This document shows positions 9,307 to 51,121 of a DNA stretch of 64,000 nt, one piece after another. The stretch is from Massilia sp. 9096 (GTDB taxonomy: Bacteria; Pseudomonadota; Gammaproteobacteria; Burkholderiales; Burkholderiaceae_D). Every line of letters starts with the position of its first letter. Positions within the stretch are counted from its first letter, which is position 1. The stretch lies in contig NZ_JQNN01000001.1 of the NCBI RefSeq assembly GCF_000745265.1, positions 3,720,001-3,784,000 on the forward strand. The letters run 5' to 3'. Under the pieces are notes generated by a model. That model ran no database searches. It was not told the DNA's origin and worked only from the letters and a program-made list of their open reading frames with translations. Position numbers and translations under genes: made by a program.

Positions 9307-9391
9307 GCCTCTGTGGCGGAATTGGTAGACGCACTTGACTCAAAATCAAGCGCCGAAAGGCGTGCCGGTTCGATTCCGGCCGGAGGCACCA
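9307..9391 (+). tRNA. tRNA-Leu (anticodon CAA), prophage integration site
   Basis: The acceptor stem GCCTCTG (9307-9313) pairs with CGGAGGC (9381-9387), with one T-G wobble. The anticodon stem-loop is CTTGA-CTCAAAA-TCAAG, giving anticodon CAA, and the T loop is GGTTCGATTCC. CCA is encoded at 9389-9391. The prophage joins at the 3' end and leaves the gene intact. Confidence 0.97.
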
Positions 9392-9571: not shown

Positions 9572-10582
9572 GTGGCTTCATTTGCAAAGCGTACGAACGG
9601 CTGGCGCGTACAGATCGCGATCCAGGGCATTCGAGAGTCGAAAGTATTCTCCACCAAAGCCGAGGCGGTCGCATGGGCGTCGATGCGAGAGGCAGAAATC
9701 CGCACTGGCAAAGCGACCGGCATCCAGCCAGGCCGGACAGTTGGAGACGCATTCGACCGCTATGAAAAAGACGTGTCGGCCGGAAAGCCTGGACATCGGT
9801 TTGAGTCGCTCAGGCTCAGGGCGATCGGAGGATGGGAGATCGACGGAAAGCCGTTCCGCGACATGAAGCTGGTCGACGCAACTTCCGAAGTACTCGGCAA
9901 ATGGCGGGACCACAGGCTAAAAATCGACAAGGTAACCGGCTCGACCGTCAATCGTGAGCTGAACCTTTTATCGCATGTTTTTCGCACGGCCGCCAAAGAA
10001 TGGAAGTGGATCGCGACCAGTCCAACCGCTGACGTTCGACGTCCAGAGGAGTCGCAGCCGCGCGACCGCTTATACGAGGACGACGAGATCGAACGCATCT
10101 GCCTGGCGCTCGGCTTCGACCTAGACGGGGATGAGCGCGCTGAGACGACAAGTCAGCGAGTGGCCGTGGCGTTTTTGTTCGCCATCGAAACGGCCATGCG
10201 TGCCGGCGAGATCTGTGGCTTGAAGCCGTCTGACGTCGCTGGCCGCGTTGCTACGCTGGAAAAAACAAAGAACGGCACGAAGAGGAAGGTGCCGCTATCG
10301 AAGCGTGCGATTGAGCTGCTCAAGCTGCTACCACCACCCGAGGAAAGCGGCACCCTGTTCGGCGTCACGACTGCGTCGCTTGATGCCCTCTTCCGCAAGG
10401 CGAAAATACGAGCCGCGATTGAAGACGCCACGTTCCACGACTCACGCCATCTGGCCATTACTAGGCTGGCGAAGAAATTCAACGTGCTAGACCTGGCACG
10501 GATTGTCGGGCACCGCGACATCAAGCAGCTGATGGTGTACTACAACGAGACGGCCGAGTCGATGGCCGAGCGCATCGACTAA
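9572..10582 (+). CDS. int: Tyrosine-recombinase integrase
   Basis: This 336-residue phage integrase starts at GTG 9572, with CAGGAG at 9558-9563. The N-terminal half holds arm-binding and core-binding (SAM-like) domains. The catalytic set is complete: R210 (TAMRAGEI), K233 (KTKNG), H289 and R292 (FHDSRH), H314 (GHRDIKQL) and nucleophile Y324. It lies 180 bases inside attL and points away from it, as expected for tRNA-targeting integrases. Confidence 0.97.
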   Translation: MASFAKRTNGWRVQIAIQGIRESKVFSTKAEAVAWASMREAEIRTGKATGIQPGRTVGDAFDRYEKDVSAGKPGHRFESLRLRAIGGWEIDGKPFRDMKLVDATSEVLGKWRDHRLKIDKVTGSTVNRELNLLSHVFRTAAKEWKWIATSPTADVRRPEESQPRDRLYEDDEIERICLALGFDLDGDERAETTSQRVAVAFLFAIETAMRAGEICGLKPSDVAGRVATLEKTKNGTKRKVPLSKRAIELLKLLPPPEESGTLFGVTTASLDALFRKAKIRAAIEDATFHDSRHLAITRLAKKFNVLDLARIVGHRDIKQLMVYYNETAESMAERID

Positions 10583-11387: not shown

Positions 11388-11407
11388 TACTGTATGTTTG
11401 TACAGTA
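11388..11407. promoter_or_regulatory. LexA (SOS) box between divergent genes
   Basis: CTGT (11390-11393), eight bases, then ACAG (11402-11405), flanked by TA on both sides, matches the proteobacterial LexA consensus. The symmetry extends to an 11-bp inverted repeat (11384-11394 and 11401-11411). Confidence 0.85.
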
Positions 11408-11463: not shown

Positions 11464-11772
11464 ATGTTGGACGAAAGTTTCTGGGATGAGTTGACAGCAG
11501 TAGGTGACGCAGCACGTCGCGCAGTGCCTGAGATTGTTAGCCGCTACAGGCACGAAGGTGTCTTGACTTGGTCGCTACTGCATGAGATCGAGGCCGAGGT
11601 TCTAGCCGAGCTGCGTGCGCTTGGAAAATACGAAGAATGGATCCTCAACATGATTCGAGCGGCACCCGTGCTCGGCTATCCAACTGATGATCGACCGGTA
11701 TCATTCGCGAATGCTGGAGTCGTGCCCATCATCTTCAAGCTGGTTGAGAAAGCGTGGAAGCTGGTACATTGA
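11464..11772 (+). CDS. LexA-regulated small helical protein, unknown function
   Basis: This 102-residue protein starts at ATG 11464 (MLDESFWDELTAVGDAARR...), 57 bases downstream of the SOS box. A GGGG/AGG-like site precedes it. The content is mainly helical (EIEAEVLAELRALGKYEEWILNMIRAAP) with no signal peptide. It is divergent from the gene at 11075-11371 and convergent with the lysis cassette end. It could be a lysogenic-conversion gene or an SOS-induced phage factor; the sequence does not say which. Confidence 0.65.
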   Translation: MLDESFWDELTAVGDAARRAVPEIVSRYRHEGVLTWSLLHEIEAEVLAELRALGKYEEWILNMIRAAPVLGYPTDDRPVSFANAGVVPIIFKLVEKAWKLVH

Positions 11773-44062: not shown

Positions 44063-44478
44063 GCTGCTGCCTTCTTCCCATGCGGGATGACCTGGTCACC
44101 CAGGCGCGACGGGATATCGCGGTAGTGGAGCGCACCTGGGCGCATGACGCGCAGCGCCGGCCTGTTCTGTGTGGACAGCGGCCGTTGCGGCGCGGCTTGG
44201 CGCGACGTGGCAACGTCGCCGACCGCAGCCGCGGCATCGACGATGCCAAGGTAAGAGCGGCCGGCGGACGTCACACGGTAAGACTCGTTGACCAGCTCGA
44301 CCAGGTGCCAGGACAAAAGGCGCTCAACGACTTCGTACTGGAAGTCGCGCGCTGACTGTTCGTACGACGATTCCTGCATCCAGCCATAAAGGCTCTCTTG
44401 GCCAAGCATGTGCAGGTAGCCCAGCGCACGGTACGGCCAGCTGCCTCGGCGCGGCCCGGTATGCTTATTCGCCGCCAT
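44059..44478 (-). CDS. Hypothetical early protein, possible winged helix
   Basis: This 139-residue protein starts at ATG 44478. It contains YRALGYLHMLGQESLYGWMQESSYEQSARDFQYEVVERLLSWHLVELVNESYRVTSAGRSYLGI, which has the helix pattern of a winged helix domain. The tail is polar. It overlaps the primase start by 4 bases and the CII gene end by 14. Confidence 0.55.
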   Translation of the reverse strand: MAANKHTGPRRGSWPYRALGYLHMLGQESLYGWMQESSYEQSARDFQYEVVERLLSWHLVELVNESYRVTSAGRSYLGIVDAAAAVGDVATSRQAAPQRPLSTQNRPALRVMRPGALHYRDIPSRLGDQVIPHGKKAAA

Positions 44479-44935
44479 GTGCGCCTCCGCGATGGTTGAT
44501 CCCGTAGACGCGGACGATGAGCGCGAGCAGCTCGGATGCCGACTTCTGGATACCGATGACATCGCGCTCGAGAACGGCCTCTTCCTGCTTGTCGACGATG
44601 CAGTCATTGCTCAATGCGCTGTCGAAGTCACGCGAAAAATTGCCCAGCAGGACATACAGCTGATTGAATTTCTTCATCAGATCTTCGTTCTCGCACTCGG
44701 TGTCCGGCAGCTTGACGAACACGCCGCCGCTGGCCTGTGCGATCGCGTCAACGTAGTGCGTAGTCTCCGACAGCTGCTGCAGCGCGAGGGATTTTTCATC
44801 GGACAGCTTCTGATCCTTGACCTCGTAGATGCGGTTACGCAAGGCTGCAGGCGACATGCCGAGGTATGCGGCCGCAACATCCCATCCACCTTTTACCCTC
44901 TCGATCATATCGAGCTTCGCTTGACGCAACCCCAT
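44465..44935 (-). CDS. CII-type phage regulator (Phage_CP76 family)
   Basis: This 156-residue protein has the N-terminal helix-turn-helix GGWDVAAAYLGMSPAALRNRIYEV and the family core SLALQQLSETTHYVDAIAQASGGVFVKLP. The start at 44935 has AGGAGG 5 bases upstream. CII proteins of this family activate or time early promoters. It is divergent from the gene at 45024 around an inverted repeat that may be its operator. Confidence 0.88.
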   Translation of the reverse strand: MGLRQAKLDMIERVKGGWDVAAAYLGMSPAALRNRIYEVKDQKLSDEKSLALQQLSETTHYVDAIAQASGGVFVKLPDTECENEDLMKKFNQLYVLLGNFSRDFDSALSNDCIVDKQEEAVLERDVIGIQKSASELLALIVRVYGINHRGGAHGGE

Positions 44936-45397: not shown

Positions 45398-45634
45398 TTA
45401 CTGCCGTGTTTCGGAGCAGACTGGAGTCTCGACGTAACGGGATGGGTAGATGAGTTGAAGCTCGTTCACCTCACCTTCAAACTCGCTGCAAATCCGCTCA
45501 GCCAACTGCGGACCCGGCACCTGGACCCCACGCTCGATGCGACTTAGATTCCCAACGTCGCTGCCTACGATCTTGGCCAATGCGTCCAGTGTCATGCCCC
45601 GTTTTTCACGAGCTAGTCGAAGAGGTGATTTCAT
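45398..45634 (-). CDS. Cro-like XRE-family repressor
   Basis: This 78-residue protein has a single helix-turn-helix domain (LRLAREKRGMTLDALAKIVGSDVGNLSRIERGVQVP). It starts at ATG 45634, facing the repressor gene. It shares the recognition stretch GNLSRIERG with the repressor, so both should bind the same operators, as Cro and CI do. A TATAAA -10 candidate (45669-45674, leftward) is flanked by operators. Confidence 0.85.
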   Translation of the reverse strand: MKSPLRLAREKRGMTLDALAKIVGSDVGNLSRIERGVQVPGPQLAERICSEFEGEVNELQLIYPSRYVETPVCSETRQ

Positions 45635-45654
45635 GGAATGTCTCGCTCCAAAAA

Positions 45655-45715
45655 TGCGTAATCCGCACTTTATACGAGAACACGGTGATGCGCAATACGC
45701 CTTGCGAGCCGCGCA
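45655..45715. promoter_or_regulatory. Three 13-bp operators between the divergent XRE genes
   Basis: TGCG-N5-CGCA-type sites occur at 45655-45667, 45689-45701 (last base C) and 45703-45715. The rightward repressor promoter candidate is TTGCGA (45702-45707), 17 bases, CACAAT (45725-45730). Confidence 0.75.
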
Positions 45716-45737
45716 TCAAAATCCCACAATTCAGCGC

Positions 45738-46133
45738 ATGACCGTAGGCGAAAAAATCAGGGCGATAAGAGTCGCCAAAGGAATGACCCTTGCGGAAGTT
45801 GAGGGTCGGGCAGGTCTTACTGACGGCAATCTCTCAAGAATCGAACGCGGAAAGCAATGGGCTAGCGAAGATGTCCTCCGCGCTATTGCGCAGGCCTTGC
45901 TGGTCCGAGTCGTCGAGTTCTTCGATGACGAAGAGATCCCAACCGCAGTGTCTGATGGGTACAGGCATCCAGCCACCCAGGAAATACGGTCGGCAATATC
46001 CCAAGCCGCAGACGAAGTACGCTTACTTACTGTTTACCGCCTCGCCAATGCCTCGGATCGAGCTGTAATCGACTCTGCTATCGATGATGTGATTGAGCGG
46101 CTTGACGTCGTCAGCATTCTTAACAAGCGATAG
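45738..46133 (+). CDS. Phage repressor (CI-like, no S24 domain)
   Basis: This 131-residue protein has an N-terminal XRE helix-turn-helix (6-60: IRAIRVAKGMTLAEVEGRAGLTDGNLSRIERG). The short C-terminal part has an SQAADEVRLLTVYRLANASDRAVIDSAIDDV helix pair. There is no S24/LexA-type peptidase domain, so RecA-driven self-cleavage is not expected. ATG 45738 is used because it lies after the operators and about 8 bases from the -10, which suggests a leaderless mRNA; longer frames would cross the operators. Confidence 0.85.
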   Translation: MTVGEKIRAIRVAKGMTLAEVEGRAGLTDGNLSRIERGKQWASEDVLRAIAQALLVRVVEFFDDEEIPTAVSDGYRHPATQEIRSAISQAADEVRLLTVYRLANASDRAVIDSAIDDVIERLDVVSILNKR

Positions 46134-46253
46134 CATGGGTCGGTTCTGAAGCGGAAAGCGCCTCTGCATATGCTTTGCCATAGAGCGTAGACGATCTCGG
46201 CCGTCTGGGCTCATCGTCACATAGATACTTATGAGTTCGTCAACTTCATTCAT
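46023..46253 (-). CDS. SOS-controlled small ORF antisense to the repressor end (antirepressor candidate)
   Basis: This 76-residue frame (MNEVDELISIYVTMSPDGRDRLRSMAKHMQRRFP...) starts 28 bases downstream of a LexA box and overlaps the last 111 bases of the repressor gene in antisense. The N-terminal half is an amphipathic helix pair as in small phage regulators. The ribosome site is weak. It could be an antirepressor like 186 Tum, or its transcript could interfere with the repressor mRNA. Confidence 0.55.
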   Translation of the reverse strand: MNEVDELISIYVTMSPDGRDRLRSMAKHMQRRFPLQNRPMLSLVKNADDVKPLNHIIDSRVDYSSIRGIGEAVNSK

Positions 46254-46280
46254 GAGGCGCTCGCGTGTGAATGTAAACAA

Positions 46281-46296
46281 CTGTACACCTATACAG
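46281..46296. promoter_or_regulatory. LexA (SOS) box in the immunity region
   Basis: CTGT, eight bases, ACAG (CTGTACACCTATACAG) matches the LexA consensus. It lies between the repressor and the rightward early promoter; a terminator at 46385 blocks rightward use, so its likely product is leftward. Confidence 0.75.
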
Positions 46297-46384
46297 TAGT
46301 TTTTGCCAGTAGTTAGACATCTTCGATTGCCACACGGATTCAAATGCTAGTAAACGCCGTGTTTTGGCGCTTCTCCTTCAGCTC

Positions 46385-46410
46385 AGCCCGCTACTAGCGG
46401 GCTTTTTTTT
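46385..46410 (+). terminator. Intrinsic terminator downstream of the repressor
   Basis: AGCCCGC-TACTA-GCGGGCT is followed by eight T. Confidence 0.88.
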
Positions 46411-46471
46411 GCCATCGAACCCGACCACAACCGTGCAAATGGATGTTGCTTAAATTATTTTGCTCGTTACA

Positions 46472-46508
46472 TGCGATTGACGCATTAAAATATAATGCGT
46501 AGTATGCA
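46472..46508 (+). promoter_or_regulatory. Rightward early promoter with repressor operators
   Basis: TATAAT at 46491-46496 is flanked by an exact TGCG-N5-CGCA site (46472-46484) and a near match (46496-46508, TGCG-N5-TGCA). A weak -35 (TTACAT) is at 46467-46472. Confidence 0.7.
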
Positions 46509-46552
46509 TCCATCGCAACCAAGCCCGGCAGGGCTGATGTCTGGAGAGCACA

Positions 46553-46699
46553 ATGATTTACTTCCTTGTAACGCTGAGAAAGGCTGGTGAACCGGTAAGG
46601 CACTACTTCCGCCCCGCTTATAACTCAGCGGCAGCTTATGACTTGGTCGCCGCCGAGCAAGGTGACGCCGTCTTCGGCATTACGGTCGTGCCGGCATGA
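46553..46699 (+). CDS. First rightward early gene, 48-residue protein
   Basis: This small frame reads MIYFLVTLRKAGEPVRHYFR... and ends at TGA 46697-46699. CTGGAGAG lies just upstream, and its stop overlaps the next ATG. It follows the repressor-controlled promoter directly, so it is the first early gene. No family is recognised. Confidence 0.7.
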   Translation: MIYFLVTLRKAGEPVRHYFRPAYNSAAAYDLVAAEQGDAVFGITVVPA

Positions 46700-49416: not shown

Positions 49417-50487
49417 TTAATGCACAGAGCTCGCTGATTCCTCATCCCACCTTTGATCCCTGAGCCTTTCCCAAGCTGAACGTAAGTGAACAGCTTTTAA
49501 TATTTTACGTTTCCGAGGATTCCAACTATGGACCAACTCAACAGCTCGATCCACCGATTCCCGCGCATCTGGATAATGTGCCAGTACCCAATGCATCGAA
49601 CTAAGCAGCTCTAACCCATACGGATCTTCATAGCCCTCGATTAATTTGTAAACCCGAATTATTCGGCTCATCAAATCACTATCGGCGTGCAACTCTTCTT
49701 TGGCTGCTTCAGAAGCTCCCGGCTTCAGCCCGATCTTTTTGGTCGGGCTATCAATTCCATCACCATATCCTTCAATATAGTGACCCTCCAGATGTATTAG
49801 GACTTGGCGGAGGTTGCTCGCATAAGGACCATACAATTTTGCTTCGTATTTTAAACGTAAAGGCTGCCCAGCCTCTTGCAAAAAATACATTAGCTTATGT
49901 ATCTCTAACAAACTCATAAAGGGATCGAGCAGCCCGGCTTGATAACGCTCCATCATACTGATCAGTGCAGCCCGTCCTGGTGTAATTTTGGGACGAGTAG
50001 TACGAATCGGCATTACTTTTGCATCTGGCGCTCCAGATGGAGGAAAAACTAATACATCGACATTCGGAAGATGTTGAAAAGCTTTTTCGATGAGTGGCCT
50101 AACATCATCCCACGCTAGACCACCATTTCCACAACCAAGAGGAGGAATGGCTATTGATTTAATACCAAGCTTTTCTATTGTAGCTACAAGCGATTTCAAC
50201 CCACTTACAATATCTTCCAACCTACTGCGCGAACGCCAATGACCTTTCGTTGGGAAATTAATAATCCAGCGATGACCGTCTACTAGACCACCCAAATCGA
50301 AAACATGCATTTCTCCAAGCTTTACTTCGCCATTTTTACAGGCCACTTCATAAGCCTTAAACATACCGGGGTAAGCTAGCTTAAACTGCAGGGCAATGCC
50401 TTTCCCCATAACACCTTCGGTATTAACTGTGTTAACAAGTGCCTCCACCTCGGCAGTTAACAAATTACCGTCTGTTATTTTAATCAT
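49417..50487 (-). CDS. darG: DarG macrodomain antitoxin (ADP-ribosyl glycohydrolase)
   Basis: This 356-residue protein has an N-terminal macrodomain (1-155) with VNTVNTEGVMGKGIALQFK, the NFPTKGHWR lysine (K81) and IPPLGCGNGGLAW. A C-terminal domain of about 190 residues (ITPGRAALISMMERYQAGLL...EIHKLMYFLQEAGQPLRLKYEAKLYGPYASNL) resembles the DUF4065/Panacea fold. It should remove ADP-ribose from thymidine and neutralise DarT directly. It follows darT after a 1-base gap. The base composition is more A/T-rich than that of the phage genes, which suggests separate origin. Confidence 0.93.
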   Translation of the reverse strand: MIKITDGNLLTAEVEALVNTVNTEGVMGKGIALQFKLAYPGMFKAYEVACKNGEVKLGEMHVFDLGGLVDGHRWIINFPTKGHWRSRSRLEDIVSGLKSLVATIEKLGIKSIAIPPLGCGNGGLAWDDVRPLIEKAFQHLPNVDVLVFPPSGAPDAKVMPIRTTRPKITPGRAALISMMERYQAGLLDPFMSLLEIHKLMYFLQEAGQPLRLKYEAKLYGPYASNLRQVLIHLEGHYIEGYGDGIDSPTKKIGLKPGASEAAKEELHADSDLMSRIIRVYKLIEGYEDPYGLELLSSMHWVLAHYPDARESVDRAVELVHSWNPRKRKILKAVHLRSAWERLRDQRWDEESASSVH

Positions 50488-50488
50488 A

Positions 50489-51121
50489 TTATGGGAAGTA
50501 CCAATCTTTCTTAACTATGACACGCAGGTCAATATTATTTTTAACCAATATTTTATTGACTTGAGCCGCAATCTTTTCGTTATGCACTCCAATGCCTAGC
50601 AACGAATCTACTGGAAACGATTTTTCGATTAAAAATTCCGTCGCTTTTTTATTCATTCTATCGCCACTCCAAGCATCGGAGCGCACGACTTCCCAAGCAA
50701 CATGCTCCAGTGCATCTGTTGCATTAGAGAATGTTGTATAGGCTGCACCTGCATTACCATCACTAATAGCCCAAGGCTGTTGAAGGCTCCACGCTCGGTT
50801 CACGTTGCTAACGAGATGCAGGATTGTGGTCTGGCAACCAGGCGGTCGACCAGTGTTTCCCTTGTTGATGGTGAAGAGCATTGGCGAACGGGGGCAAAAA
50901 TAGAACGGTACAAACTCTCCAACAAACCGCCCTTCGCAACAATCGACTCTGTAGGTGTTCAATCGACGCCACTTGATAGTTGCGTATCCAATTTCCGTTA
51001 CGTCCTTGCCTGATGCCCTCATAGCTGCATCAGACAGCAATGCTCCTTCATCAATAATGCTTTGCAGATTAGCAACATCTGTGATGTGATAGATTCGTGT
51101 TTTGGCTGGGTCAGTCGTCAT
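50489..51121 (-). CDS. darT: DarT DNA ADP-ribosyltransferase toxin
   Basis: This 210-residue protein has the DarT pattern: RIYHITDVANLQSII with His12, the EIGYATIKWRRLNTYRV region, FVPFYFCPRSPMLF and the catalytic Glu162 in KKATEFLIEKSFP. DarT adds ADP-ribose to thymidine in single-stranded DNA. DarTG modules are known anti-phage systems, so this prophage may protect its host from other phages. All key residues are present. Confidence 0.93.
   Translation of the reverse strand: MTTDPAKTRIYHITDVANLQSIIDEGALLSDAAMRASGKDVTEIGYATIKWRRLNTYRVDCCEGRFVGEFVPFYFCPRSPMLFTINKGNTGRPPGCQTTILHLVSNVNRAWSLQQPWAISDGNAGAAYTTFSNATDALEHVAWEVVRSDAWSGDRMNKKATEFLIEKSFPVDSLLGIGVHNEKIAAQVNKILVKNNIDLRVIVKKDWYFP

Follow-up and report, generated by a model that had tools for sequence, protein, structure and literature searches.

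We describe a putative indirect SOS switch in a prophage of Massilia sp. 9096, located in a stretch of 64,000 nucleotides (NZ_JQNN01000001.1, positions 3,720,001 to 3,784,000) that we call the window; positions below count from its first letter. The prophage repressor has no self-cleavage domain, and a small gene running opposite to its 3' end is preceded by a LexA box. We propose, with a probability of roughly 0.7, that this gene encodes an SOS-induced antirepressor, encoded opposite its target, that acts on the tail of the repressor. The initial annotation had suggested a candidate switch built from these elements: a 131-residue repressor at 45738 that consists of an XRE domain plus a short tail and lacks an S24 peptidase, a LexA box, and a 76-residue open reading frame (ORF) antisense to the repressor 3' end. 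It allowed for a small protein, an antisense RNA or the two together as the agent against the repressor. Its coordinates are right, the overlap recurs in relatives, and the switch is supported as far as sequence can tell by the box, the lack of S24, selection on the ORF and recurrence. The core elements are:

45738 to 46133, plus strand: repressor, 131 residues, with an XRE helix-turn-helix (HTH; HTH_3) at about residues 1-61, a linker and a predicted two-helix tail; no S24 peptidase
46023 to 46253, minus strand: small gene for a 76-residue protein, the proposed antirepressor; predicted N-terminal helical hairpin, low-confidence C-terminal half
46023 to 46133: antisense overlap of 111 nucleotides, codon opposite codon, where the plus strand encodes the repressor tail and the minus strand the C-terminal half of the small protein
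46281 to 46296: LexA box CTGTACACCTATACAG, within a longer imperfect palindrome (46275-46302)

The small gene starts 27 nucleotides downstream of the box. By sequence only, this is the arrangement of a LexA-controlled antirepressor, with the box directly upstream of the gene. A bare match to CTGT-N8-ACAG proves little by itself: the window contains two, against a mean of 0.61 after shuffling, which is not significant (14 of 100 shuffles had two or more), and the whole genome contains 48 against 25 in a reversed control. The stringent form CTGTAYN4RTACAG is found at 23 sites in the genome and at none in the reversed control; two of the 23 are within the prophage and one is found immediately before the host lexA. 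The host SOS box is of the E. coli type, and CTGTACACCTATACAG is of the same type as the site upstream of lexA. The box is a good candidate for a host LexA site.

The S24 peptidase domain that characterizes lambda-type repressors cleaved with RecA is absent from the 131-residue protein. No S24 protein is found in the prophage, while the genome has two, LexA itself and one encoded elsewhere than in the prophage.

The strongest argument against a chance arrangement is the conservation of box, ORF and antisense register in divergent relatives. When IMG/VR was scanned with the box pattern ACTGTACACCYATACAGT, 36 stretches were obtained, and in 21 of them the box is followed by a small gene that is convergent with a phage repressor. 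Twenty of these modules were tabulated and 19 measured. The repressor of L035 is cut; L048 has the module, with a gene for 82 residues starting 224 nucleotides from the box, and lies outside the measured table; L057 is the IMG/VR record of the window's own prophage and was entered as the window. In the measured modules the small proteins have 67-86 residues, the distance from box to start is 26-161 nucleotides and the overlap is 96-129 nucleotides. The register of the overlap is identical in all 19.

Three types of small protein (A, A2 and B) occur among the modules. Since the modules of the scan were picked by their box, a search with the protein provides an independent test. A type-B profile found 13 loci in IMG/VR, ten of them known from the box scan and three new (L123, L124 and L132). 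A stringent LexA box is present in 12 of the 12 loci that retain upstream sequence, of which 10 were found by the box. L123 is cut at a contig end, and the two other new loci each carry a LexA box that differs in its centre.

Types A/A2 and B are related to each other, with an hhalign probability of 93%, as are the corresponding repressor tails (95%). The DNA-binding domains behave differently. Type B occurs with three HTH domains, i.e. two very different XRE domains and a phrog_12107 domain, while the phrog_12107 class occurs with two types of small protein, B and A2. Because the HTH domains vary within a small-protein type and vice versa, the small protein goes along with the type of tail and not with the type of HTH. 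This goes beyond the initial annotation, as does the finding, described below, of related modules that have no LexA box.

The leader between box and start is also shared across types. The sequence AGTTTAGCGTTCTGAACTTGGAGG is common to L059, L053, L052, L036, L046, L056, L061 and L124 (with one difference in L036), and it spans modules of type A and type B whose proteins differ strongly, pointing to a control region that is exchanged as a unit between module types.

Its pattern of variation shows the 76-residue ORF to be a gene under selection, as opposed to a by-product of the antisense arrangement. In the part outside the overlap, the ratio of nonsynonymous to synonymous differences (pN/pS) is 0.29 for type A (5 loci), 0.33 for A2 (5 loci) and 0.36 for B (8 loci), which indicates purifying selection on the small protein; L063 was left out as near-identical to L044. 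Inside the overlap the values are 0.94, 0.86 and 0.70, respectively, and the repressor frame dominates. Even so, the synonymous term (pS) of the repressor is somewhat lower inside the overlap than outside it for each type (0.60 v 0.76, 0.56 v 0.71 and 0.56 v 0.72).

Next, we used a profile of the repressor tail only. In 392 genomes of the host family it matched nine places in eight genomes, and at all nine a convergent small gene overlaps the repressor 3' end. Two of the places (in G151) are identical around the module and two genomes (G209 and G356) are close relatives, leaving about seven distinct cases; L143-L146 and L151 were read via the overlapping loci L108, L110, L115 and L111. A LexA box is found near the small gene at only two of the nine places. 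Against 1200 shuffled controls, the type-A profile ranks five of six convergent proteins without a box above every control, and the remaining one above all except one. Since all nine places have the convergent gene and two have the box, the partnership between tail and small protein is wider than SOS control, and SOS is probably just one input among several. Across 369 genomes of the class, the only matches of the tail profile were the host and one weak hit.

In three modules without a LexA box (L110, L111 and L148), the small gene is preceded by palindromes that resemble the repressor's own promoter sites. Other palindromes precede it in L149 and L150, and no clear control site is seen before the small gene of L147. 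The overlaps in L110, L111, L148, L149 and L150 are short, about 30-36 nucleotides.

The proposed mechanism involves further elements of the immunity region:

44465 to 44935, minus strand: CII-like regulator (PF06892, phrog_101), after the Cro-like gene
45398 to 45634, minus strand: Cro-like XRE protein of 78 residues, divergent from the repressor, heading the leftward early operon
45655 to 45715: TGCG-N5-CGCA sites that resemble operators (45655 and 45703), in the region separating the repressor gene from the Cro-like gene
46385 to 46411, plus strand: intrinsic terminator facing the repressor transcript, past the LexA box

In the lysogen, the non-cleavable repressor would silence the leftward operon of Cro-like, CII-like and primase genes, while LexA would silence the small convergent gene. 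Because the terminator at 46385-46411 lies past the box, the repressor transcript would also span the entire small gene in antisense, with no good terminator before the box. DNA damage would then remove LexA and the 76-residue protein would be made. Its N-terminal helical hairpin may bind the helical tail of the repressor, break the oligomer and free the repressor from DNA. Transcription in the leftward direction would further act on the repressor message through interference and antisense RNA. We infer here that LexA occupies the box, that the promoter faces the small gene, and that the protein binds the repressor, has the tail as its target and brings about induction. A tail-pairing SOS antirepressor is proposed because of the hairpin models, the pairing of SinR with SinI, and the LexA-controlled precedents of the Gifsy phages and phage 186.

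It could also be argued that RNA does the work: leftward transcription, induced by SOS, would interfere or form a duplex with the repressor message, might enter the Cro-like operon, and the protein would be of minor importance. The two genes are fully convergent. Further, no repressor-strand terminator is seen between repressor stop and box in 18 of the 19 measured modules (L049 has a weak one), so the repressor and small-gene transcripts should oppose each other, and in 12 of the 19 no terminator is seen on the strand of the small gene as far as the repressor start. Against this reading, however, the ORF is under purifying selection outside the overlap, a GGAG or better precedes the start in 14 of the 20 tabulated modules, and the overlaps are short in five box-less modules. 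We consider this reading unlikely. An effect of the protein on the repressor is favoured, to which antisense transcription in both directions probably adds a second layer.

A number of observations weigh against the antirepressor reading. The promoter scan gave no sigma-70 match at the LexA box, and the sequence leaves the direction of the promoter unsettled. A clear Shine-Dalgarno sequence is absent before the window's ORF, unlike in the 14 modules mentioned above. With the type-B profile, only L147 among the six box-less proteins exceeds all controls. When the same 392 genomes were searched with the small proteins, 12 places were found and seven of them have no module: four are free-standing type-B-like proteins (L116, L117, L118 and L119, those of L116 and L119 in tandem) and three are partial type-A hits in G347, G224 and G141. 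The free-standing proteins could serve as antirepressors in trans, or their role could be a different one.

Such proteins, standing alone or in tandem away from repressors, would fit a small protein that acts after SOS induction on the host or on another phage process, e.g. cell division or superinfection, its position opposite the repressor being incidental. The family searches are in line with it: no family in Pfam (E up to 0.01), PHROG or PADLOC covers the window's protein, and no Pfam or PHROG match of this protein and four relatives names a function. The convergent gene at nine of nine tail-found repressors, and the repressor-like palindromes before the small gene in L110, L111 and L148, point the other way, and we regard an incidental position as quite unlikely.

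The co-inheritance of tail and small gene could also merely reflect adjacency. Any partner protein would fit adjacency and tail matching, including a co-regulator whose effect after damage would be to tune or restore the repressor and not to inactivate it. LexA control, however, would time the protein to the usual moment of prophage induction, the repressor has no cleavage domain, and the known precedent, in the excerpted text of PMC3121763, is that of LexA-controlled antirepressors. We regard a co-regulator as very improbable.

Predicted structures are in part consistent with the antirepressor reading. The AlphaFold model of the small protein has hairpin helices at residues 3-13 and 16-32, a block with a predicted local distance difference test score (pLDDT) of 80-90. 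In the repressor model, the HTH and a low-confidence linker are followed by tail helices at 78-102 and 105-130, which are of moderate confidence (pLDDT of about 57-75). Three features of the predictions count among the points against: the mean pLDDT of the small protein is 63, with low confidence in the C-terminal half opposite the repressor gene; fold-search matches, including SinR, cover the HTH only and not the tail; and the hhalign probability between small protein and tail is 1.5-18% for type A and under 1% for type B. Column shuffles equalled the score in 0-1 of 60 cases for type A and 36-41 of 60 for type B. As the similarity is weak for type A and lacking for type B, tail mimicry by the small protein remains weakly supported.

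If the antirepressor reading is true, it would explain how prophages with non-self-cleaving repressors answer SOS. It also offers a testable case in which the same DNA encodes both a target and its antagonist, and in which input and DNA-binding parts are exchanged around a fixed core. A more general idea, which we find somewhat doubtful, is a portable cassette in which the oligomerisation tail and its antagonist, a SinI-like helical tail mimic, are on opposite strands and both HTH and promoter can be swapped. A swap of HTH would then alter operator specificity while inducibility is kept, and a swap of the antagonist promoter (LexA box or the repressor's operators) would alter the trigger.

The analysis also flags an unannotated class of genes. 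In a database of 5.8 billion proteins, the type-B profile has 42 matches and the type A/A2 profile 24, with the window's own protein included, and the names shown for these 66 are all "hypothetical protein". One of them, P0017, a type-B small protein of Massilia sp. PDC64, is identical to that of genome G383, from the same genus as the window. A tblastn search with three small proteins, one per type, gave no match in 50,697 annotated phage records.

The surrounding prophage has a few additional features.

9372 to 51433: prophage of 42 kb, sited at the 3' end of tRNA-Leu(CAA) and bounded on both sides by a 22-bp direct repeat (copies at 9372 and 51412); integrase (9572-10582), terminase, tail protein J and a VapE-type primase

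A second stringent LexA box, CTGTATGTTTGTACAG, is located at 11390-11405, towards the integrase end. It is flanked by a DUF2471 gene (11464-11772, plus strand) and a 98-residue ORF (from 11371, minus strand), and probably marks a second SOS-controlled unit. A third operator-like TGCG-N5-CGCA site at 46472, with the similar ATGCGTAGTATGCAT adjoining (46469-46512), precedes a rightward run of small genes beginning at 46553, which suggests that this operon is also under repressor control. At the right end, Pfam and PADLOC matches identify a DarT-DarG pair (ADP-ribosyltransferase toxin and macro-domain antitoxin; 49417-51121), likely phage-defence cargo.

Parts of the module resemble known systems. 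According to the excerpts of PMC3121763, the small antirepressors GfoA, GftA and GfhA of the Salmonella Gifsy phages are under direct LexA control and act on a non-cleaved repressor, and related ones act on repressors that differ in operator recognition. Here, too, there is a repressor without an S24 cleavage domain and a small gene with a LexA box directly upstream. In contrast, the Gifsy genes are placed outside the immunity region in the same excerpts (PMC3121763), whereas the gene described here is convergent with the repressor and overlaps it. E. coli Rem was found by searching from the Gifsy antirepressors, according to part of PMC10448788. It is the sole sequence of the Gifsy family compared with our small protein, and the hhalign probability is 0.45%.

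The initial annotation had set its candidate apart from Tum of phage 186, and this contrast holds. The tum gene is located away from cI. As described in the excerpts of PMC3121763, Tum is a LexA-controlled antirepressor that binds the repressor and keeps it off the operator; it has 146 residues and a DinI-like second half, whereas the small protein has 76 residues and no Pfam match.

In their predicted helical hairpins, both partners resemble SinI and SinR, and the two helices of SinI have a counterpart in the small protein, in the model only. Pfam contains a SinI model, and it matched neither the window protein (E up to 0.01) nor four relatives (E up to 1). To our knowledge, sinI is not antisense to sinR. 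In Bacillus subtilis, SinI is a small antirepressor of two helices that pairs with the tail, likewise of two helices, of an HTH repressor, and sinI is under the control of Spo0A, where our module has a LexA box (PMC3163267, in part).

A further likeness is to the transcription factor-small protein modules of vibriophages. Their small protein reportedly inactivates the master repressor. In these modules a small-protein gene beside the regulator controls prophage induction (Silpe et al. 2023, PMC10432266). The excerpted text presents them as independent of a DNA-damage cue and describes no overlap with the repressor, in contrast to the LexA box and antisense overlap found here. Among the matches listed from the open-licence literature, there is no report of an antagonist encoded opposite its repressor. 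LexA-controlled antirepressors are established in the Gifsy phages and phage 186; in the module described here, the antagonist lies opposite its presumed target.
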